IMG/VR virus record: IMGVR_UViG_3300040801_000770 | Coordinates: 1-22,987 of that record | Length of the DNA stretch: 22,987 nucleotides | Origin: a virus | Direction: 5' to 3' (one strand) | Shown: positions 9,025 to 22,790 of the stretch, one piece after another | Layout of the letters: each line of letters begins with the position of its first letter | Position numbering within the stretch: position 1 is the first letter of the stretch | Notes under the pieces: generated by a model | The model's database searches: none | What the model was told of the DNA's origin: nothing | What the model saw: the letters and a program-made list of their open reading frames with translations, nothing else | Made by a program: the position numbers and the translations under genes

Positions 9025-9420
9025 ATGGTCCCGAACCAAGGGCAACTATTCTTCGCGAAGGCTGCGCTCAAGGCCGGCCACGAGTTTCGCCTGCGGCTGT
9101 TCTCCAACGACCTGACGCCTTCGGCGACGACGGTCGTCGGTGATCTGACGGAGGTCATCGGCAACGGCTACGCCGGGGTCTCCCTCCCCGACGTCACGTG
9201 GACGCTGGACGGCGACGGCGACGGCACGTTCGGCGACGTGGACTTCCAGGGCTCCGGCGGTGATATCGTCGCCTATGGCTACTACATCGTCGCCGACGAC
9301 CCGGAGAACCCCGGTACCGAGCTGCTCGTGGCGGTCACGCGCTTCTCCACGGCACCGCTCACCGCTGTCGACGGCGGCCTGCCCATCCGCGTCAGCCCGG
9401 TTATCAACAACAACTCCTGA
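9025..9420 (+). CDS. Probable virion structural or accessory protein
   Basis: This 131-residue protein starts with ATG at 9025, directly behind the AGAGGCTAGACACC repeat. It begins MVPNQGQLFFAKAALKAGHE and is a beta-rich sequence with RLRLFSNDLTPSATT, an acidic Gly/Asp stretch (LDGDGDGTFGDVDF) and GYYIVADDPENPG. It matches from memory a phage family that begins MIVPNAGE and contains LVLKLYKNNITP..., with a YGYYVV strand; members occur near tail or fibre genes in phages. The family's role is not firmly known, and a decoration or tail-accessory protein is likely. It leads the accessory locus 9025-15104. Confidence 0.6.
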   Translation: MVPNQGQLFFAKAALKAGHEFRLRLFSNDLTPSATTVVGDLTEVIGNGYAGVSLPDVTWTLDGDGDGTFGDVDFQGSGGDIVAYGYYIVADDPENPGTELLVAVTRFSTAPLTAVDGGLPIRVSPVINNNS

Positions 9421-9422
9421 CC

Positions 9423-12400
9423 GTGTTCAGCTTCCGTGACGGCACACCGGCGGTAGACCCACCCGTCGATCCGCCGGTGTCCAGCGTCGCCGCCTTCGTC
9501 ACGGGACACAGCCTGAACCTGCAGGTGCCCGACATGCTCGCCGAGATCGCTCGCGAGCAAGGGGGCTCCTTCACCTGGCGTGAGCAGGGCGTAGCCGGCG
9601 GGGCGCTGGAGCAGCGGTTTAACGACCCGGCCACAGAGAGCCGGACCTACATGGTCGATTACACGACCGAGATCCCGACGGGAAACTGGCCGGTGTGGAT
9701 CAGCCCGCCGTCGGTTCCGCGCAGCCCGGATGTCGTGAACACGTCCAGCACCGTGGAGGACGTCGACTTCGGCTTCCAGCTCTGGATCGACTACCTCCGC
9801 ACGCACAACAATCAGCAGATCTGGTTCTACGAGGTCTGGCACAACACGCTCGGCGATGCGCCGGGCGAGTTCGACACGTTCAGCCCCACGCGCAACTACC
9901 CCTGGCTCGATCGGCTCCAGAGCGACCGCGGCATGTGGCGCGGCTGCGTCGAGCGCGCTCGCCTGAACAACCCGGACATGAACATCAACATGATCCCGGG
10001 CGCCTCCGTGTTCCAGGCGGTCATCCGCGCCGGCATCGCGGGCGAGATCCCGGGCTACTCCGGCGATCTGGCGTACTGGCAAGACCTGCTGTTCCTCGAC
10101 GCGATCCACATGCGCAACCGCGCGGCCTACATCATGGGTCTGACGTGGTACGCCTGCCTCTACGGGCAGCGAGCGGACGCCGCGACGGGCAACGGGTACG
10201 TCGGCCGAGACGGCGACCCCGTGGAGGACTTCCAGAACGGCCTTGGCGTCGACCCGGCCACGGCGTACGAAACGCTTGACTGGACGCCTGAAGCAAATGA
10301 GGCGATCAAGGACATTGTGTGGAAGGTCTGCCGCGAGGAGCCGCTGACGGGCCTGGTCGCGGGATTCGACCCCGAGCACCGCGCGCCTGGCGTGGACAAC
10401 CCGGTGACGCCCGGCGCCACGCTCACGATCGACAGCGACGGCCTCAACGGGTTCGGCACGACGCAGGGGCAGGTCTGGATCGGCGACCGCGACACCTACG
10501 CAGCGTCGGGCGGCACGAACGGCTCGCTTCTGCGCCAGTGTACCGTGACGGGCTGGGACAACGACCAGGTGACGGTCACGGTTCCAACGGAGGCTTTCTT
10601 CACTCCAGCCAACGCGCTCTACAGCGTGGGCCTGCCGTATGCGGCCCGAGCCATGGGCGAGGACTACCGCGACCGCTGGATCTACGTGCTCGACGATCAG
10701 GGCGCGGTGATCCCCTACGGGAACCGCGAAGGCCGGCAGGTCGAGATCGACACGCCGGAGGGACTGTCCCCGCGTGCGCAGCCCGCGAACAGCTACGTCA
10801 ACGGCCTGCAGCCGACCTTCCCGTGGTCGAGCGTCGAGATTCGCTACTTCCGAAACCTGATCCATCAGGCGGACGGCCTCACGCCGCAGTCGGGCACTGA
10901 TGGCTTCCACTACGACGTGGCGACGACGCAGGCGCGGAACGTGCCGAATGGCGCCGTGTTCTCGATCCCGGTCGGCGTGGACATCACGAGCCCTGCCGCA
11001 ACGCTCTACGCGGGCAACTACGTCGTGCGCTGGACGGGGCAGGCCGAGGTCCGCATCGCGGATGGCGCGTGGCAGTCGAGCGGCCAGTTCACCGTGAACC
11101 TCTCGACCATCAACGGTCTGTTCCTCGAGGCCCGCAACGAAACGGGCGGGACCGTCGCGACAGACTTCCTGACCGAACTCACGATGATCCGGTACGACGA
11201 GTACCCGGGCGCGACCGACGCGGAGCGAATCGCTGCAGCGCTGGCGGACTACGACGCCGGACTCGCCGCGATGGACGAGCGCATCTTCCACCCGCAGTTC
11301 ACGTCCATGCTGCGCGAGATCAACTGCCGGTTCTGGCGGACCTACAACTGGCAGTGGGAGACGCTCTACTTTGAGTACGCCCCGATGTGGTCGCAGCATC
11401 GCGTACCAGGCGCGCTGACGTGGGGCGGTGCGGTGCCGTTCGAAGTTGAATGGGCGCTCGCTCGCGCGTTCGACATGGACCTTGCGCAGAACATCCCGAT
11501 GGGGATGGATCAGGACTGGATCACCGGCTTCGCGACCCTGCTGCGGCAGGAATACGGAGACGTGCTCGCTGCAGGGCGCCGGGCGTACTACCTCGAGCTT
11601 GGAAACGAGACTTGGAACCTGTCGCTCCCGTACCTCTACCCGGCGCACCAGGCGCTCGGACGCACGGCAGCGCGGGATGTCTACACGCGCTGGGCGCTTC
11701 GCCCGGCCGGCTCACAGACGTTCACGGTCTACGACGCGAACGGCAACGTGGTGCCGCACGGCTACAGCAACGGTCAGGAGCTCTGGTTCCACAGCGGTGT
11801 GGCCCCGACGGGCGCCGAGATCGACTTCTCGCACGCGATCTCGAACGTCACCGCGACGACATTCGACGTCCCCGCGTTCCCCACGAACTCGATCGACACG
11901 TGGGTGAACTTCATGGCGATCGACACGGCGACGCTGTCGGCCGGCTTCCCCACCATTCAGGAGCGGCACGAAGGGCACGGCAGGGCCACTGCGCTCATGT
12001 ACGGGTGGCTCCAGGGGGTGCTCACGGCAGAGCAGTGGGCCAGCGTCGTCAAGGCGATGCCGGGACAGGCCGGCGCGACGGACGACATGGAGGCCCGTCT
12101 GCTGGCCTACGAGGCGGCCGTGACGGCGAACGGCCTGAGCATCGGGCTCGTCGACGAGGCGCTACTGGCGAACTACTACTACACCGACTGGACACAGCCG
12201 ACGTTCGCAGCTCGGGCCGCCACGGTCGATACCGCCGGCTTCGTGGCGGGCATGACCGCGATGCTGGTGCCCATGCAGGCCCATAACCCGAGCATGGGCT
12301 TCTCCTTCTACGAAGGCGGCAACCACGACGGCGGGGACACGTTCGACTACGCCGGCATCGGGTGGCCGTTCGCGATCACCGAGCACCACGTCACGGCTTG

Positions 12401-12575
12401 GGACGACTGGATGAGCGGCATTCTCGCTGCGTTCCCGCAGGTCACTCGAGGCGCGTACTACTGCGACGCCGGGTACCTCGACCCGTGGACGATGGTAGGC
12501 TACCAAGGGCAGGACCCGAAGATCCCGATTCATCGCTACTTCGTCGCCCATCAGGGCTACATCGAGCGAGCTTGA
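9423..12575 (+). CDS. Large bifunctional surface enzyme: SGNH-like esterase plus GH-A-like glycosidase
   Basis: This 1050-residue protein starts with GTG at 9423, just after the previous stop. The N-terminal domain (about 20-310) has an SGNH-like opening TGHSLN, with S30 as candidate nucleophile, and ends with D226-A-I-H229, which fits the SGNH D-x-x-H block. A beta-sandwich (IPT/TIG-like) follows at about 325-410. The C-terminal part (about 590-1050) resembles clan GH-A TIM-barrel glycosidases: AQNIPMGMDQDWI, then LELGNETWN with N728-E729 as candidate acid/base, and later FYEGGNHDGG with E964 as candidate nucleophile. Two similar beta modules (VLDDQGAVIPYG at about 422-433 and VYDANGNVVPHG at about 768-779) suggest duplication. 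It has no signal peptide, so it is probably virion-attached and acts on host polysaccharide by deacetylation plus backbone cleavage. Catalytic residues are read by pattern only. Confidence 0.8.
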   Translation: MFSFRDGTPAVDPPVDPPVSSVAAFVTGHSLNLQVPDMLAEIAREQGGSFTWREQGVAGGALEQRFNDPATESRTYMVDYTTEIPTGNWPVWISPPSVPRSPDVVNTSSTVEDVDFGFQLWIDYLRTHNNQQIWFYEVWHNTLGDAPGEFDTFSPTRNYPWLDRLQSDRGMWRGCVERARLNNPDMNINMIPGASVFQAVIRAGIAGEIPGYSGDLAYWQDLLFLDAIHMRNRAAYIMGLTWYACLYGQRADAATGNGYVGRDGDPVEDFQNGLGVDPATAYETLDWTPEANEAIKDIVWKVCREEPLTGLVAGFDPEHRAPGVDNPVTPGATLTIDSDGLNGFGTTQGQVWIGDRDTYAASGGTNGSLLRQCTVTGWDNDQVTVTVPTEAFFTPANALYSVGLPYAARAMGEDYRDRWIYVLDDQGAVIPYGNREGRQVEIDTPEGLSPRAQPANSYVNGLQPTFPWSSVEIRYFRNLIHQADGLTPQSGTDGFHYDVATTQARNVPNGAVFSIPVGVDITSPAATLYAGNYVVRWTGQAEVRIADGAWQSSGQFTVNLSTINGLFLEARNETGGTVATDFLTELTMIRYDEYPGATDAERIAAALADYDAGLAAMDERIFHPQFTSMLREINCRFWRTYNWQWETLYFEYAPMWSQHRVPGALTWGGAVPFEVEWALARAFDMDLAQNIPMGMDQDWITGFATLLRQEYGDVLAAGRRAYYLELGNETWNLSLPYLYPAHQALGRTAARDVYTRWALRPAGSQTFTVYDANGNVVPHGYSNGQELWFHSGVAPTGAEIDFSHAISNVTATTFDVPAFPTNSIDTWVNFMAIDTATLSAGFPTIQERHEGHGRATALMYGWLQGVLTAEQWASVVKAMPGQAGATDDMEARLLAYEAAVTANGLSIGLVDEALLANYYYTDWTQPTFAARAATVDTAGFVAGMTAMLVPMQAHNPSMGFSFYEGGNHDGGDTFDYAGIGWPFAITEHHVTAWDDWMSGILAAFPQVTRGAYYCDAGYLDPWTMVGYQGQDPKIPIHRYFVAHQGYIERA

Positions 12576-12583
12576 GGTAACCG

Positions 12584-13546
12584 ATGGCCACGATTGTCGC
12601 GGGACAGATCGCTCTAGGCTTCAACTCAGGGTCGGCCGTTTCTGCGCAGATTCTGCCTGCGACGACCACGCCCGGCAATTCCGCCATCATCTTGGCAGGT
12701 GGCCCGCTGGGCGCCACGATCGCTTCTGCGGTAGACGGCAATGGCAACCCGCTGACGGAAGTAGGAACGCCTGTAACCGACGCGTTCGTGCAGGTTCGAC
12801 AGTTCACGACCGGGGCGATCACTCCTGGCACTGACCGCGCAACGATCACCTGGAGCGCGTCGGGCGACACGTTCATACTGATCGGCGAGGCTGTGGGTGA
12901 TGTAACCGGTGTCGCCGGAAGCCTCACGAACATGCCGTTCCGCAACCTCTCGGGCTCGACGCCGCCCGGGGACACCATTGCGGTTCCGAACGACGCCTCG
13001 ATCATCATGAGCACGGGTTACACGGGCCCGGGTGGCGCTACTCCGACGTTCGGTGGCGGCACGGTCGTTGCGCCTGACGGTGCGACCCTGCCGAACTTCG
13101 ACTACGCCGGCTTCCGCAACGTGGCGACGGCCGACCCTGCGGAGGTGATCGGCTGGGCAGGGTTCCCGTTCAACGCAGAGTTCGGTGGCTGGGCGGCCGT
13201 CTTCGAAGACGCTGGCGGCGCTACGCCGATCGATGGCGGCGGCACGGAGACGATCACCTACGAGGACGGGACCACTGCGGGCATGGCGCCTGCGACGGTC
13301 ACGGACGTGGTGCAGGATGAGACGGGCACGCCGATCGCGAATCAGACCGGCATCGCATGGTCCTGGTTCGACGCGTTCCCGGACGCCAACGCTCCCGACT
13401 CGAGCGGCACGGGCGAGACCACGGACGCTTCGGGGAACATCCAGCTCACGGTGTCGACGCTGCTGCAGGTCGGCCAGACGGGATACCTCGTCATCGAGCT
13501 GGGTGATGGGCGAGTCGCAGTATCGAAGCCAGCCGTAGGCTTCTGA
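12584..13546 (+). CDS. Putative tail-fibre or virion-surface protein with Gly/Ala/Thr-rich beta structure
   Basis: This 320-residue protein starts with ATG at 12584, with GAGG about seven bases upstream. The sequence is rich in Gly, Ala, Thr and Ser and has few charged residues: TIVAGQIALGFNSGSAV, then ILPATTTPGNSAIILAGG, with several short beta-strands; it has no signal peptide and no catalytic motif. Residues about 215-235 contain IDGGGTETITYEDGTTAG, a copy of the DGGG repeat that dominates the next gene, and the C-terminal 90 residues look like an Ig- or big-type beta domain (VVQDETGTPIANQTGI). Its composition suggests an exposed virion protein, possibly a fibre component that carries or receives modules from the neighbour. 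Confidence 0.6.
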   Translation: MATIVAGQIALGFNSGSAVSAQILPATTTPGNSAIILAGGPLGATIASAVDGNGNPLTEVGTPVTDAFVQVRQFTTGAITPGTDRATITWSASGDTFILIGEAVGDVTGVAGSLTNMPFRNLSGSTPPGDTIAVPNDASIIMSTGYTGPGGATPTFGGGTVVAPDGATLPNFDYAGFRNVATADPAEVIGWAGFPFNAEFGGWAAVFEDAGGATPIDGGGTETITYEDGTTAGMAPATVTDVVQDETGTPIANQTGIAWSWFDAFPDANAPDSSGTGETTDASGNIQLTVSTLLQVGQTGYLVIELGDGRVAVSKPAVGF

Positions 13547-13549
13547 GCC

Positions 13550-14113
13550 ATGGCGCTGATCGCGCACGACGGCACAGCGCTCGTAGCGCCGGCTGCGTTC
13601 ATCGATGGCGGTGGCGCGGAGTCGCTCTCCTGGTCTGACGCTGCGGTAGCTGGACTGCTGCTGGATGGCGGCGGCTCCGAGGCCATCACGTGGGCCGATG
13701 CGTCCGCCACGTCCATCCCCGGCCAGACCATCGACGGCGGCGGCACGGAATCGCTGGTCTGGGCTGAAAGCTCGCTGGCCGGGCTTCTTCCTGGAAGCGC
13801 CGAGCCGCAGACGATCGTATGGGCCGAGGCCTCGGTCTCCGGCGTACTGCCGGGCATCGTCGATGGTCCGTACACGATCACCCTGGTGGACGCGACCACC
13901 TACGGCATCGCGCCGTCGCAGACCCCGCTCGACGGAGGTGGCACCGAGGCGCTGACCTGGGCAGAGACGTCCATCGCCGGCCTCTTGCTGGACGGAGGTG
14001 GCACCGAGGCGCTGACCTGGGCAGAGACGTCCATCGCCGGCCTCTTGCTGGACGGTGGCGGTGGTGCAAGCATTCCGCCGCTGGCGTTCCACCACCTGTT
14101 CAGGACGCTTTGA
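13550..14113 (+). CDS. DGGG-repeat virion-associated protein
   Basis: This 187-residue protein starts with ATG at 13550, three bases after the previous stop. Nearly the whole length is made of about eight imperfect units built on DGGGxEaltWaetsiaGLL, e.g. IDGGGAESLSWSDAAVAGLL at about 18-37 and two identical units at 128-147 and 148-167, encoded by a perfect 60-bp tandem duplication. Central units are degenerate (EPQTIVWAEASVSGVL and VDGPYTITLVDATTYG). Each unit could form a beta-hairpin stacked into a solenoid or fibre. It has no signal peptide. It probably helps build a tail fibre or spike or mediates attachment to the surface. The family is not known to me. Confidence 0.65.
   Translation: MALIAHDGTALVAPAAFIDGGGAESLSWSDAAVAGLLLDGGGSEAITWADASATSIPGQTIDGGGTESLVWAESSLAGLLPGSAEPQTIVWAEASVSGVLPGIVDGPYTITLVDATTYGIAPSQTPLDGGGTEALTWAETSIAGLLLDGGGTEALTWAETSIAGLLLDGGGGASIPPLAFHHLFRTL
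13931..14050 (+). repeat. Perfect 60-bp direct tandem repeat (two copies)
   Basis: Copies 13931-13990 and 13991-14050 are identical along all 60 bases, and a third partial copy starts at 14051 with GACGG before diverging. Each unit encodes 20 residues (DGGGTEALTWAETSIAGLL plus one Leu). Exact identity at the DNA level between adjacent copies, in contrast to the divergent older units, points to a recent slippage or unequal-exchange duplication. Confidence 0.95.
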
Positions 14114-15414: not shown

Positions 15415-15752
15415 TGGCTGAGAAGAAAGAGAAGACCTACAGGGGTGACACCCGCACCCGCGCGCACCGGATCAGAGCAGTCCGGCAGGAGGAGTTGCGG
15501 CAAAAGCTTGCTGCGCAAGGACACGAGCAGCACATTCTTGATTGTGCGGAGAAAATCGGGAATGTTGACCCGCAGGAAAGCCACGCTGACGTAGAGGTGC
15601 GGAAGTGGAAGGCGAAAGCCGAAATCCACGCCAAGCTCCTCGACAAGTACATCCCCGCCCTGAAGGCCGTGGAGATGGAGGTGGACGCGTCCGAAGCCCT
15701 CACCGAACGCCTTACGGCGGCATTGCATCATGTCCGCAACCGCAACGCCTGA
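15414..15752 (+). CDS. Terminase small subunit (probable)
   Basis: This 112-residue protein starts with ATG at 15414 (TGATG) and overlaps the large terminase gene by 23 bases. It is highly charged and helical: MAEKKEKTYRGDTRTRAHRI, then LAAQGHEQHILDCAEKIGN, then a lysine-rich helix KWKAKAEIHAKLLDKYIPAL. The pattern of a short N-terminal basic region, a helical pair and an acidic C-terminal helix before the large subunit is typical of small terminases, which recognise the packaging site. The sequence has no clear HTH, so the assignment rests on position and composition. It is part of the packaging module with the gene that follows. Confidence 0.6.
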   Translation: MAEKKEKTYRGDTRTRAHRIRAVRQEELRQKLAAQGHEQHILDCAEKIGNVDPQESHADVEVRKWKAKAEIHAKLLDKYIPALKAVEMEVDASEALTERLTAALHHVRNRNA

Positions 15753-17211
15753 CATCCTGACGCAGATCGCTGCGGAGTGTTACGGAGACCCGCTCGGCTG
15801 GGTTCAGGTGGCGTTCCCGTGGGGCAGGGGTCAACTAGAGCAGTACGAGGGGCCGGATAGCTGGCAAGAAGACTTCCTGGAGGAGTGGGGCGAGCTGATT
15901 CGCGGCCGAGGCTTTGACGGCTCTGGACCTGTCGAGCCGATCCGCATGTCTCGTTCCTCCGGCCACGGGATAGGGAAGTCCGCGCTCATGGCGTGGATCA
16001 ATCTGTTCCTCATGTCGACCCGCCCGCAGTGCAAGGGCACGGTTACAGCCAACACGAGCCCGCAGCTCGAAACGAAGACGTGGCCTGAGCTGAACAAGTG
16101 GCATCAGGTCTGTCTGTTCCGCGATTGGTTCAAGGTCTCGTCCGGGCGTGGGGCGATGCGTATCGCTGCGGTAGGGGCTGAGAGCACTTGGCGCATTGAC
16201 GCTCAGACCTGTGCAAAGGAGAACTCGGAAGCCTTCGCCGGTCAGCACAACGCGCAGTCTTCGTCCGTGTACCTGTTTGACGAGGCGTCCGCCGTGCCTG
16301 ATGAGATATGGCAGGTTGCAGAGGGCGGACTGACGGACGGAGAGCCGCACATCATCGTCTTCGGCAACCCTACTCGGCGTAGCGGGAAGTTCTATGAGGT
16401 GAACTTCGGTCGGCTGCGGCACCGCTGGAATCATGGTGTCGTGAACGCCGAAAACGTGGCGATGACGAACAAGGAGCTGCACAGGCAGTGGGCGGACGAC
16501 TGGGGCAAGGACTCGGACGCATACCGCGTGCGGGTGCTGGGCCTGCCGCCGCAGCAGGGTGATTTCCAGTTCATCGCATCTGATGACATTGACCGGGCCA
16601 TGTCGCAGGACGTGGAGAAGGACCGTGGTGCCGCGCTGGTGATTGGCGTGGACGTTGCGCGCTTCGGCTCTGACCGCTCCGTCATTCGGTTCAGGCGCGG
16701 CCAGGACGCCCGCAGCATTCCGCCTCGGGTGTATCGTTCGCTTGATACCATGCAGCTTGCGGCGCGCGTAGCTGAGGTGCTGGACGAGTACCCGCAAGCG
16801 ACGTGCTTCATCGACGGCGTTGGTGTCGGCGGTGGCGTGGTGGACCGCTTGCGACAGCTTGGCTACCGGAACGTGGTGGACGTGAATGCCGGAGCCCGGC
16901 CGACTGACCGCAGGAAGTTCCTGAACCTGCGCGCCGAAATGTGGAGCCGGATGCGCGACTGGCTGCGTGGTGGCGGGTGTGTAGAGTCCAGCTCGGACCT
17001 GCGTGCAGACCTCGAGGCGGTAGGCTACGGGTTCAATGAGAAGCAGCAACTAGTCATCGAGAGCAAGGAAGCCATGCGTCGCAGGGGGGTAGACTCTCCT
17101 GACGATGCGGACGCGCTGGCGCTGACGTTTGCGCAGAACGTAGCCAGGGCGGACATGGGCGGCAGGGCGTCAGCCGTTGTCGCGGTGCGTGACATCGACC
17201 CATTCGAGTGA
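15730..17211 (+). CDS. Terminase large subunit (ATPase/nuclease)
   Basis: This 493-residue protein is a well-formed large terminase. The ATPase part has Walker A SSGHGIGKS (76-84), Walker B VYLFDEAS (180-187) and coupling motif FGNPT (211-215). The RuvC-like nuclease part carries D308 in GVDVARFGSD, D362 in FIDGVGVGG and the acidic DSPDDADA run with D458, D459 and D461 as candidate metal ligands. The enzyme pumps DNA into the procapsid and cuts it. The start at 15730 overlaps the previous gene by 23 bases. Its length is normal for the family. It heads a head-assembly block followed by portal and capsid genes. Confidence 0.95.
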   Translation: MSATATPDILTQIAAECYGDPLGWVQVAFPWGRGQLEQYEGPDSWQEDFLEEWGELIRGRGFDGSGPVEPIRMSRSSGHGIGKSALMAWINLFLMSTRPQCKGTVTANTSPQLETKTWPELNKWHQVCLFRDWFKVSSGRGAMRIAAVGAESTWRIDAQTCAKENSEAFAGQHNAQSSSVYLFDEASAVPDEIWQVAEGGLTDGEPHIIVFGNPTRRSGKFYEVNFGRLRHRWNHGVVNAENVAMTNKELHRQWADDWGKDSDAYRVRVLGLPPQQGDFQFIASDDIDRAMSQDVEKDRGAALVIGVDVARFGSDRSVIRFRRGQDARSIPPRVYRSLDTMQLAARVAEVLDEYPQATCFIDGVGVGGGVVDRLRQLGYRNVVDVNAGARPTDRRKFLNLRAEMWSRMRDWLRGGGCVESSSDLRADLEAVGYGFNEKQQLVIESKEAMRRRGVDSPDDADALALTFAQNVARADMGGRASAVVAVRDIDPFE

Positions 17212-17873: not shown

Positions 17874-18006
17874 GGAGAAGAACCTGCAGCGCGAGCAGCA
17901 GGACGAACTGCGGATGCAGGGGCAGGAGAAGCGCCGCCGCATTTCGCTGATGGGGTCGGGCGGGCGCAGGTCGCTGCTGTCCGGCGCTGAAACGGGAGTG
18001 ATGTGA
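17839..18006 (+). CDS. Conserved small phage protein before portal
   Basis: This 55-residue protein starts with ATG at 17839, with GGAG about nine bases upstream, and its stop shares an A with the portal ATG (TGATG). It is helical and strongly charged (LTAEEKNLQREQQDELRMQG) with a basic patch (KRRRIS) and a C-terminal GGRRSLLSGAETG. A G-R-R-S-L-L-(T/S)-G-like ending is a hallmark I associate with small proteins encoded just upstream of portal genes in podophages. A role in portal or head assembly is likely by association. Confidence 0.65.
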   Translation: MKMPKAPGLTAEEKNLQREQQDELRMQGQEKRRRISLMGSGGRRSLLSGAETGVM

Positions 18007-19592
18007 TGGATCATCCGGTCGAGAAGCTGGGCACGGTAGATGCGCTGATCGACCGGTTCGGGAAGGCTCGCTCGCGTCGTGCCAACTGGGAAGACATGTG
18101 GCGGGATGCGTACGACTACACGATGCCCGCCAAGAACCTCTGGGTGGAGCGCACGAAGGGCAATTTCCGTCGTCGGAAGATATTCGATAGCACGGCTGTA
18201 AACGGTGTGCCGACCTTCGCGACCCGCATCATGGCGGCGCTGACGCCTAGCTGGACGAACTGGGCGAAGCTCGAACTGGGCGCGGCGGTGGACGATGACG
18301 CCGAGCTGGGGCTGGACCCTTCGCAGTGGCCCGACTACGCGGGCATGACGGCGCTCGAGGCGGTGGAGGAGATTGGCGAGACGCTGTTCCATTACCTGCA
18401 CCACAGCAACTTCGCATCGCAGGCGTTCGAGGCGTATCAGGACCTTGCTGTGTCGACGGCGAGCATTCACATGGACTGGCGCGATGGCGGGTTCGTGTTC
18501 ACCGCTGTTCCGCTGTCCGAGCTGTTCCTGGAGGAGGGTCCGAACGGGAGCGTCGAGACGCAGTGGCGCAAACTGAAGGTTCCCGCTCGGAACATTGCGC
18601 AGACGTGGCTCGGCGCCGAGGTGGCGGGCGAGCTGGCCGGGCTGGTGGAGCGCGCGCCGGACACCGAAGTCGACATCATTGAGGGCGTGGTCCATGTGCC
18701 GCCCAAGCGCCCCGGAGACGACCCTGAATACTGGTTGGTCGTCATGGACGAGACGCGCAAGACGATGCTGCTGGCATCCCCTCACGGCGAATCCAGCCCG
18801 TACATCACGGCGCCCTGGTCTCGCACGCCGGGCGAGATTTACGGGCGTGGCCCGGTGATTTCTGCGCTGGCTGACATCATGACGGCCAACAAGATGATGG
18901 AACACAAGCTTATTGGCGATGCTTTCGCCGTGATGGGGCTGTGGACCGGCGTGGATGACGGAGTGTGGAACCCGCACACGGCACGGCTGAAACCGGGGAC
19001 CATTCTGCCGGTGGCGTCGAATGACGGGACGAACCCCTCCATTCGCCCACTGCCGCTGGGCGGTGCGCCGCAGATCGTGGACGTGGATCTCGAGGCGCTG
19101 CGCCGGAACATCGAGAAGCAGCTCTTCTCGAACCCGCTGGGTGACATCCAGGACGCTCCGGTGCGGACGCTGGGCGAAAACATGATGCGAATGCGCGACG
19201 TGCTGGAGAAGGCTGGCGCGTCGTTCTCGCTGCTGGAATGGGAGTGGGCCGCGAAGATCGTCAAGCGCGGCGCGTTCCTGCTGGCAAGGGAGGGCATCAT
19301 TCCGCCGCTGCGCATCGACGGGCAGGACGTGGCGATCAAGTTCTCCTCGCCGCTGGCGCAGGCTCGTGACGCTCAGGAGCTGACCAGCATCGTGCAGTAC
19401 GCGCAGACGATGGGTGCCGTTGCGCCGATGGAAGCGCCGTTCGCGTTCAAGACGGAGGAGGTGTCCGACTACGTGCGCGAGAAGACGGGTCTGCCTGAGC
19501 GGCTGTTCCGCACGCAGGAGGAGATACAGGAGGCGATGGCGCAGATGGCTGCGATGCAGGGGGGTGCCGGTGGACAACAGCAGCCCGTTTGA
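18006..19592 (+). CDS. Portal (head-tail connector) protein
   Basis: This 528-residue protein starts with ATG at 18006 (TGATG). It shows the features of podophage head-tail connector proteins (T7 gp8-like): an N-terminal helix with RSRRANWEDMWRDAYDYTMP, then the region around YGRGPVISALADIMTANKMM at about 279-298, and a C-terminal helical clip region (LLEWEWAAKIVKRGAFLLAR) plus a Gln/Met-rich tail. The portal is a dodecameric ring at one vertex, through which DNA is packaged and ejected. Its length is right for the family, and the flanking genes (large terminase, Bbp19-like, scaffold) agree. Confidence 0.9.
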   Translation: MDHPVEKLGTVDALIDRFGKARSRRANWEDMWRDAYDYTMPAKNLWVERTKGNFRRRKIFDSTAVNGVPTFATRIMAALTPSWTNWAKLELGAAVDDDAELGLDPSQWPDYAGMTALEAVEEIGETLFHYLHHSNFASQAFEAYQDLAVSTASIHMDWRDGGFVFTAVPLSELFLEEGPNGSVETQWRKLKVPARNIAQTWLGAEVAGELAGLVERAPDTEVDIIEGVVHVPPKRPGDDPEYWLVVMDETRKTMLLASPHGESSPYITAPWSRTPGEIYGRGPVISALADIMTANKMMEHKLIGDAFAVMGLWTGVDDGVWNPHTARLKPGTILPVASNDGTNPSIRPLPLGGAPQIVDVDLEALRRNIEKQLFSNPLGDIQDAPVRTLGENMMRMRDVLEKAGASFSLLEWEWAAKIVKRGAFLLAREGIIPPLRIDGQDVAIKFSSPLAQARDAQELTSIVQYAQTMGAVAPMEAPFAFKTEEVSDYVREKTGLPERLFRTQEEIQEAMAQMAAMQGGAGGQQQPV

Positions 19593-21113: not shown

Positions 21114-21944
21114 ATGTCCAAGAACCTTTCCGCTGTCGCCCAGACCGAGTTCGACGACCAGGTACGTCAGGCGTACCAGAAGGGGTCGATGCTCCGCGAT
21201 ACGGTCACGATCCGTAGGGCGACGGGCGACACCTACAAGTTCCGCGAAATGGGCAAGGGTCTGGCGAACCAGAAGCCGAGCCAGGCCGACGTGACGCCGA
21301 TGGATGTCGCGCACAGCCAGCCTACCGCAACGCTCACGAACTGGAACGCTCCCGAGTACACCGACATCTTCGATGCTGCCGAGGTGAACTTCGACGAGCA
21401 GCAGGAGCTGGCGGAAACCATCGCCATGGCGCTGGGTCGTCGGGTGGACCAGCTCATCATCGACGCGATGGATTCTGCTACGGCGGATGCCAGCGTGGCG
21501 GAAGGCGGCACGGGCCTTTCGGTGGCGAAGACGCTGGAAGCGTCCCGCATCCTGAACGATGCCGGCGTACCCAGCTCGGAGCGCACGTTCGCTCACTCGG
21601 CGATTGCTCTCCAGCAGATGCTGAACGAGGACAAGGCGACCAGCTCCGACTACCAGACCGTCAAGGCGCTGGTGAGTGCGGAGCTGAACACCGGCTTCGG
21701 TTTCACCTGGAAGTGCATCGAGTCGCGTGACGAGGGCGGTCTGCCGCTCGCCACGAACGAGCGCACGTGCTTTGCGTACCACAAGGGCGCTGTCGGCTAT
21801 GCCGAGGGCCTTGCCCCGCGTACCGAGGTGAACTACGTCGCTCAGAAGACGTCTTGGCTTGCCAATGGCATTCTCAAGGCGGGCGCGGTCGTTCGTGCAA
21901 CCGATGGCTTTGTCGACGTTGGCGTCGACGAGAACCCGGCATAA
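21114..21944 (+). CDS. Major capsid protein
   Basis: This 276-residue protein has ATG at 21114, with GAGGA nine bases upstream. It begins MSKNLSAVAQTEFDDQVRQA and matches the P22-type/BPP-1-like podophage coat family: VTIRRATGDTYKFREMGKG near the N-terminus, DIFDAAEVNFDEQQELAETI at about 84-103, a central region with QLIIDAMDSA, and a C-terminal segment with RTEVNYVAQKTSWLANGILK and GVDENPA. Coat proteins of this kind build the T=7 shell together with the scaffold. Its position after the scaffold and before the cement-like protein and tail tubular genes agrees. It has a dedicated upstream promoter and leader. Confidence 0.9.
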   Translation: MSKNLSAVAQTEFDDQVRQAYQKGSMLRDTVTIRRATGDTYKFREMGKGLANQKPSQADVTPMDVAHSQPTATLTNWNAPEYTDIFDAAEVNFDEQQELAETIAMALGRRVDQLIIDAMDSATADASVAEGGTGLSVAKTLEASRILNDAGVPSSERTFAHSAIALQQMLNEDKATSSDYQTVKALVSAELNTGFGFTWKCIESRDEGGLPLATNERTCFAYHKGAVGYAEGLAPRTEVNYVAQKTSWLANGILKAGAVVRATDGFVDVGVDENPA

Positions 21945-22235: not shown

Positions 22236-22790
22236 ATGGCGTCCAGGGTCGACATCTACGACCTGGCCTCGCGAGCAATTGGCGCGGGGCCGGTCGACAG
22301 CACGGGTGGAAGCTCTGTCGTGGAGCAGACGCTGGACGCTGTGTTCGATGTCACCCTGGATGCCGTGCTTCAGACGAACCGGTGGACGTTCTGCACGCAA
22401 CTCATCAGTTTGAACCGGCTGACCGACCCGCCTCCGTTTCGTTACACCTACGCATTCCAGATGCCGGCCAATGCGCTGAAGCTGTGGCGCGTCGACCCGA
22501 ACACTCCGTATCAGGTGGCTGGCGACCAGATTCTGTCCGACCAGCTCGAGCTTGATGCGGACGTAACCCTGCGCCCTGAAATCGGCCAGCTTCCTCCGCT
22601 GTTTGTGCGGGCGCTGTACTTTGAGCTGGCGGCGGCAATCGCCATCCCGATCACTCAGAACGCGGACATTGCGACCGCGATGCAGCGTCAGGCGCATCGT
22701 CTGTGGCCGCAGGCACGCAACGCAGACGCGCAGCAGGACCCGCCGCCCGCCATCGTGGACTCGCCGTTCACTGCCGTCCGGAACATCTAA
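22236..22790 (+). CDS. Tail tubular protein A-like (head-tail adaptor)
   Basis: This 184-residue protein starts with ATG at 22236, four bases after the previous stop. It is helical, with VDIYDLASRAIGAGPVDSTG, then LDAVLQTNRWTFCTQ, FRYTYAFQMPANALKLWRVD and a C-terminal helix. The R-Y-x-Y-A-F-Q-x-P segment and the W-T/R-F-C/A words recall the T7 gp11-like tail tubular A family, which forms the ring below the portal. Its length is usual for the family. It abuts the tail tubular B-like gene, whose GTG follows its TAA directly. Confidence 0.8.
   Translation: MASRVDIYDLASRAIGAGPVDSTGGSSVVEQTLDAVFDVTLDAVLQTNRWTFCTQLISLNRLTDPPPFRYTYAFQMPANALKLWRVDPNTPYQVAGDQILSDQLELDADVTLRPEIGQLPPLFVRALYFELAAAIAIPITQNADIATAMQRQAHRLWPQARNADAQQDPPPAIVDSPFTAVRNI

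Follow-up and report, generated by a model that had tools for sequence, protein, structure and literature searches.

A phage protein joining an SGNH-type domain to a candidate glycosidase module, with relatives in bacterial exopolysaccharide operons

The DNA analysed here, which we call the window, is a virus record of 22,987 bases (IMGVR_UViG_3300040801_000770). It encodes a 1050-residue fusion protein in which an SGNH-type esterase domain precedes a module resembling clan GH-A glycosidases. To the left of the fusion gene lie genes for NinB, NinG and a single-strand binding protein, and to the right those for terminase, portal, capsid and tail-tubular proteins. The features referred to below are as follows.

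9025..9420, plus strand: 131-aa neighbour with a weak match to PHROG 644 (unknown function), ending 2 bases before the fusion gene
9423..12575, plus strand: fusion gene, SGNH plus GH-A-like, 1050 aa, GTG start, no internal stops
9480..10382, plus strand: SGNH-type esterase domain, aa ~20-320 (tblastn, leave-out profile, AlphaFold2, Foldseek)
9510..9512, plus strand: codon of S30, predicted nucleophile, in the GHSL block I, invariant in 71 sequences
10098..10109, plus strand: D226-A-I-H229, block V, with D and H invariant in 71 sequences
10410..10742, plus strand: linker with a TIG/IPT-like beta segment, aa ~330-440, assigned by sequence appearance only
10800..12572, plus strand: GH-A-like glycosidase module, aa ~460-1050 (leave-out profile, AlphaFold2, Foldseek)
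10980..11222, plus strand: beta-sandwich within the glycosidase module, aa ~520-600 (alignment A2, profile match, model strands)
11607..11609, plus strand: codon of E729, predicted acid/base (ELGNETWN), invariant in 69 sequences
11691..11927, plus strand: beta-rich insert, aa ~757-835, missing in bacterial relatives (alignment A2, columns 401-520)
12312..12314, plus strand: codon of E964, predicted nucleophile (FYEGGNH), Glu in 68 of 69 sequences
12584..13546, plus strand: 320-aa neighbour, no family, 8 bases downstream of the fusion gene
15730..17211, plus strand: terminase large subunit
18003..19592, plus strand: portal / head-tail connector (PF12236, E=1e-80)
21114..21944, plus strand: major capsid protein (PF19821, E=2e-60)
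22236..22790, plus strand: tail tubular-type protein (phrog_394, E=3e-35)

The GC content by codon position of the 1050-aa frame (0.63/0.48/0.89) matches that of the window's other phage genes, and an overlapping 788-aa frame on the minus strand was rejected as a shadow, its codon-position pattern being reversed. The anatomy described in a first-pass annotation proved right: GHSL (S30), D226-A-I-H229, LELGNETWN (E729) and FYEGGNHDGG (E964) all occur in the translation, with the five named residues in their places, the beta-sandwich exists as part of the glycosidase module, and no signal peptide is visible at the N-terminus. To this anatomy we add the TIG-like segment, which has no Pfam match and falls between the two leave-out profile matches described below, and the beta-rich insert. 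Searches of Pfam, PHROGs, NCBIfam and the PDB returned no match to the fusion protein, and no Pfam or NCBIfam family matches either half.

Single-sequence searches of viral contigs and INPHARED likewise returned no match, and homologues were reached only through tblastn against plasmids and afterwards through alignments. The first to be found were separate proteins of about 300 residues (best E=5e-7), from Paracoccus, Ruegeria, Tateyamaria and Parasedimentitalea, that matched the N-terminal half alone. Profiles built without the window find both halves of its protein, the SGNH half at aa 13-251 (E=3e-23) and the glycosidase module at aa 524-737 (E=4e-12). These E-values refer to a nominal database of 100,000; among 200 shuffled controls the best value was 5.2. 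The fusion gene is the only match within its own record. Two further hits were set aside, one from Cupriavidus (H18) as noise and one from a Ruminococcus phage (H10, E=7) as chance.

The N-terminal half was modelled with AlphaFold2 from the SGNH alignment (mean pLDDT 79, pTM 0.82), and the model supports a three-layer alpha/beta SGNH fold. Its best PDB matches in Foldseek are a CE2 esterase, GDSL acylhydrolases and the O-acetyltransferase PatB, all with probability 1.00 and with modest TM-scores of about 0.35-0.6 (about 0.4-0.6 by target length). G28, H29, S30, L31, G59, E137, W139, D226 and H229 are invariant across 71 SGNH sequences. Residue positions relative to strands are taken here and below from the secondary structure of the models. 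S30 sits directly after a predicted strand (21-28), as expected of the nucleophile. The block II glycine is G59, which follows predicted strand 49-56 in the position of the oxyanion hole, and the Asp-x-x-His of block V occupies the loop preceding predicted helix 232-247. The proposed SGNH assignment is thus backed both by the fold and by the invariance of S30, D226 and H229. The block III Gly-x-Asn, which supplies the oxyanion asparagine, is missing: relatives have T-E at this position and the window P95-P96, and invariance is found instead in E137-x-W139, beyond the following strand. Since the asparagine is absent, we regard the domain as a divergent branch and call it SGNH-type instead of a canonical SGNH member. 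Membership of the SGNH-like Pfam family DUF4886 was also rejected, as relatives match it only at E=0.01, under the gathering threshold, and the window protein matches nothing.

In the C-terminal half, R639, W643, E725, N728, E729, W731 and N732 are invariant across 69 module sequences, and H968 is kept in 67 of them. E729 comes directly after a strand (283-287 of the C-terminal model), so that N728-E729 provides a Glu with a preceding Asn at a strand end, the usual acid/base arrangement; that this is strand 4 is our own inference. E964 ends another strand (520-526), in a model whose alignment had E964 already paired and at a place where the alignment is not independently significant for the window. 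Beyond residue 732 the window scores no better than shuffles against the profile, so the case for E964 and for the second half of the barrel depends on the YEGGxH motif, its spacing from E729 and the model; after E729 the barrel is too diverged for confirmation by profile. The motifs themselves are rare by chance: among 20,000 shuffled versions of the window protein, one contained E.[SG]NE.WN and six contained YEGG.H.

The AlphaFold2 model of this module is weaker (mean pLDDT 65, falling to ~50-65 after E729; pTM 0.75). Its best PDB matches belong to GH1, GH164, GH26 and GH51, with E of at least 1.8e-3 and TM-scores up to 0.39; none has an E below 1e-3, and no match in the viral library was decisive. 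A clan GH-A fold is therefore only weakly supported: the two-glutamate setting claimed at first pass stands as GH-A-like (E729 in 69/69, E964 in 68/69), and the fold itself has weak evidence. Since none of the 69 members gives a glycosidase match in a Pfam scan and no structural match passes the 1e-3 mark, the half could instead be a carbohydrate-binding or structural barrel-like domain. We consider this quite improbable, as an invariant E-x-x-NE-x-WN followed about 165-240 residues on by YEGGxH is the arrangement of GH-A enzymes, each glutamate ends a predicted strand, and nearly all of the best PDB matches are GH-A glycosidases.

The window protein is highly diverged, forming a very long branch in both trees (9.1 for the glycosidase half). 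It departs from its relatives at several conserved positions of the glycosidase module (N647 to T, H693 to M, D697 to Q, Y837 to T and W1016 to A) and, in the SGNH half, has lost the block III T-E. These changes and the branch lengths would suit a receptor-binding protein with one dead half, one domain binding polysaccharide and the other being the sole enzyme. Against this, the rest of the protein has diverged by about 70-80% and yet all five predicted catalytic residues are kept, a pattern that speaks for catalysis being under selection in each half; we think a dead half unlikely.

In bacteria, several of the first-found SGNH genes adjoin genes for glycosyltransferases, flippases, chain-length proteins and exosortases, and CpsD/chain-length and XrtD genes are among the neighbours of the relatives. 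A search with the C-terminal half gave weak matches, one of them in the gene immediately after the Parasedimentitalea SGNH gene; this 636-residue protein and proteins of Paracoccus marcusii and Sulfitobacter faviae share E-x-SNEVWN and YEGG[ST]H. An alignment-based scan of one genome per species then confirmed at least 530 relatives of the glycosidase module. We counted gene arrangements in the best 80 of these, almost all from Rhodobacterales, so the fractions need not hold across the family. Both modules lie in one reading frame at 52 of these 80 loci, and a separate SGNH gene stands immediately upstream on the same strand at 53; 35 have both arrangements, 18 have only the separate upstream gene, 70 have at least one and 10 have neither. 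The first-pass annotation had implied that the order of SGNH domain and then glycosidase was peculiar to this protein. That was wrong, as 52 of the 80 best loci, nearly all of them from Rhodobacterales, encode it. At two loci (L015 and L018) a four-base overlap links the fusion gene to its separate SGNH neighbour, and the genes nearby encode glycosyltransferases, a polysaccharide flippase, Wzz, NRPS-like proteins and phosphopantetheinyl transferases; these are exopolysaccharide clusters. No scanned member of the glycosidase family has a Pfam or NCBIfam match for that module. The gene downstream of the SGNH gene at one locus (L003) was rejected as a glycosidase because it encodes a membrane protein.

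Several of these loci have features of their own. NRPS-like adenylation/carrier, luciferase-like monooxygenase or 4'-phosphopantetheinyl transferase genes occur at L002, L003, L004, L015 and L018, and their presence beside exopolysaccharide genes might reflect amino-acyl or acyl decoration of the polymer. The Tateyamaria omphalii fusion (L048:3783-7661) ends in RTX-type calcium-binding repeats, which suggest type I secretion. Eight bacterial fusions (L058, L059, L080, L084, L086, L087, L090 and L092) read GNSL, not GHSL, and match SGNH weakly; in them a second type of SGNH domain may be attached to the barrel module. One locus titled Nocardioides marinus (L021) is nested within Rhodobacterales sequences, is Leisingera-like and is probably a contamination or a mislabelling.

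Some dozen other viral contigs also encode the barrel module. In one phage (L100) the SGNH and barrel modules are neighbouring genes, and the SGNH protein keeps GHSL and DKIH (E=1e-4 if the window is part of the profile; domain i-E=2e-3 if it is left out). Elsewhere the barrel module shares a contig with a tail fibre gene (L103) or lies near head genes (L097), and pattern matching yielded a distant relative (L108). Two other pattern matches (L109 and L110) were discarded, as they consist only of the string YEGGNHDG in an unrelated tail-fibre-like protein. We found no second fused viral copy in a collection that may omit near relatives and by a pattern method that misses distant ones. In two contigs the barrel module has other partners, a second, weakly GH17/GH1-like module (L103:9413-12385) and a PhoD-like phosphatase (L106:3283-7062). 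Segments resembling the window's beta-rich insert (11691-11927) are present in the phage relatives L096 and L104. Although the first SGNH tree put the window beside the separate-gene SGNH group, we dropped the idea of a phage-made fusion independent of bacteria, since an AU test permits the window to group with the bacterial fusions (p=0.73). Judged by these trees, the window fusion may be either an inherited bacterial fusion or an independent joining.

Where the protein acts can be considered from its genomic position. The terminase of the window is 46% identical to that of the related, lambda-like Pseudomonas phage Tr60_Ab31, whose record opens with the terminase and closes with NinB, NinG, endolysin and Rz genes. 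By this layout the window genes from 9025 to 14113, the fusion gene included, would stand at the junction of the two ends, a position compatible with a virion gene and with an accessory gene alike. The first-pass annotation placed the gene next to virion-type genes and proposed a virion location, which is putative: the terminase is on one side, NinB/NinG and putative lysis genes are on the other, and no identified tail gene adjoins. No N-terminal tail-anchor domain was recognised in Pfam or PHROGs, and a novel anchor may exist. Within the same stretch, a 187-aa frame (13550-14113) contains repeated units of the type DGGG(T/S)E-(A/S)-(L/I)-(T/V)-WAE.

This position between lysis-region and terminase genes is a possible place for an accessory gene, the NinB/NinG genes, of a kind also present in Tr60_Ab31, suggest a temperate lifestyle, and the bacterial relatives are exopolysaccharide-operon enzymes. 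All three would fit a lysogenic-conversion (moron) enzyme, one that is produced during lysogeny, edits the exopolysaccharide of the host itself and is not carried by the virion. Its N-terminus, however, has no signal peptide or membrane anchor, unlike those of the separate bacterial SGNH proteins, and the gene runs toward the terminase on the same strand as its neighbours and tightly spaced with them; we therefore judge lysogenic conversion to be unlikely. Between action from the virion and release at lysis, the former seems somewhat the more likely.

We consider it probable that the fusion protein is a bifunctional surface-polysaccharide O-deacetylase and glycosidase of a podovirus-like phage. 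Judging from its fold and triad, the SGNH domain (S30/H229/D226, with G59 in the oxyanion hole) would first strip O-acyl, probably O-acetyl, groups from the host surface polysaccharide. The C-terminal (beta/alpha)8-type module would then cut the same polysaccharide, E729 serving as acid/base and E964 as nucleophile, roles that would mean a retaining mechanism. The two activities are probably joined because acyl groups block the cleavage site. That one polysaccharide is both deacetylated and cut is the natural reading, because relatives of both modules co-occur in bacterial exopolysaccharide operons. By sequence, the window pair is homologous to the SGNH and glycosidase pair of those operons, which presumably trims or edits the exopolysaccharide polymer. 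Phages carry relatives, probably as depolymerases. The pairing is common in exopolysaccharide gene clusters of marine Rhodobacterales, and the enzyme at work in this virus is probably related to one with which bacteria process slime. We further propose, as possible rather than probable, that the two modules represent two carbohydrate-active families not yet catalogued, that together they form a single enzyme editing a Rhodobacterales exopolysaccharide not yet described, and that phages repeatedly took up the pair, fused in the window and split in L100, as a depolymerase that matches this polymer. If so, bacterial synthesis genes would predict both the enzyme and the substrate of a phage. Members of the glycosidase family are encoded at more than 500 loci in bacteria, and the kinship of the phage protein to a bacterial enzyme pair unnamed in the searched family libraries offers a direct route to the polymer.

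No described fusion of SGNH and GH-A-like modules, from phage or Rhodobacterales, was found in the open-licence literature. The Rhodobacterales fusions (L015:4092-6650 and L018:4092-6620) resemble the window protein in domain order, catalytic residues and the beta-sandwich inside the glycosidase module, but they share only about 17-24% identity with it per domain, are encoded in bacterial operons and do not have its TIG-like linker or the insert at aa 757-835. GH1, GH164, GH26 and GH51 enzymes resemble it as barrel-type matches that have, as predicted for the window module, an NE acid/base after one strand and a nucleophilic Glu after a later one, whereas sequence similarity to them is undetectable and the fold scores are weak. 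PelA of Pseudomonas aeruginosa, a bacterial and not a phage protein, de-N-acetylates a GalNAc polymer, has no SGNH O-esterase and belongs to a different glycosidase family from the window module. A single protein of an exopolysaccharide operon, it deacetylates its polymer and also hydrolyses it (PMC12022489). The CE20 xyloglucan acetylesterase XacXaeA is an SGNH carbohydrate acetylesterase that acts with glycosidases on the same polymer but, unlike the window domain, is a separate polypeptide with an extra domain inserted in the SGNH fold (PMC8245568). Among phages, SGNH domains are present in Acinetobacter tail fibres (PMC11058221), and the SGNH tailspike gp41 of phage Aristophanes, similar in size to the window protein (993 aa), has been shown to deacetylate the host capsule (PMC8471582). 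Its SGNH domain is C-terminal, in contrast to that of the window, and it has a recognised N-terminal virion-binding domain and no described glycosidase module (PMC8471582). Phage proteins that deacetylate or cut capsules are thus known singly, whereas here both functions would be combined in one phage polypeptide.
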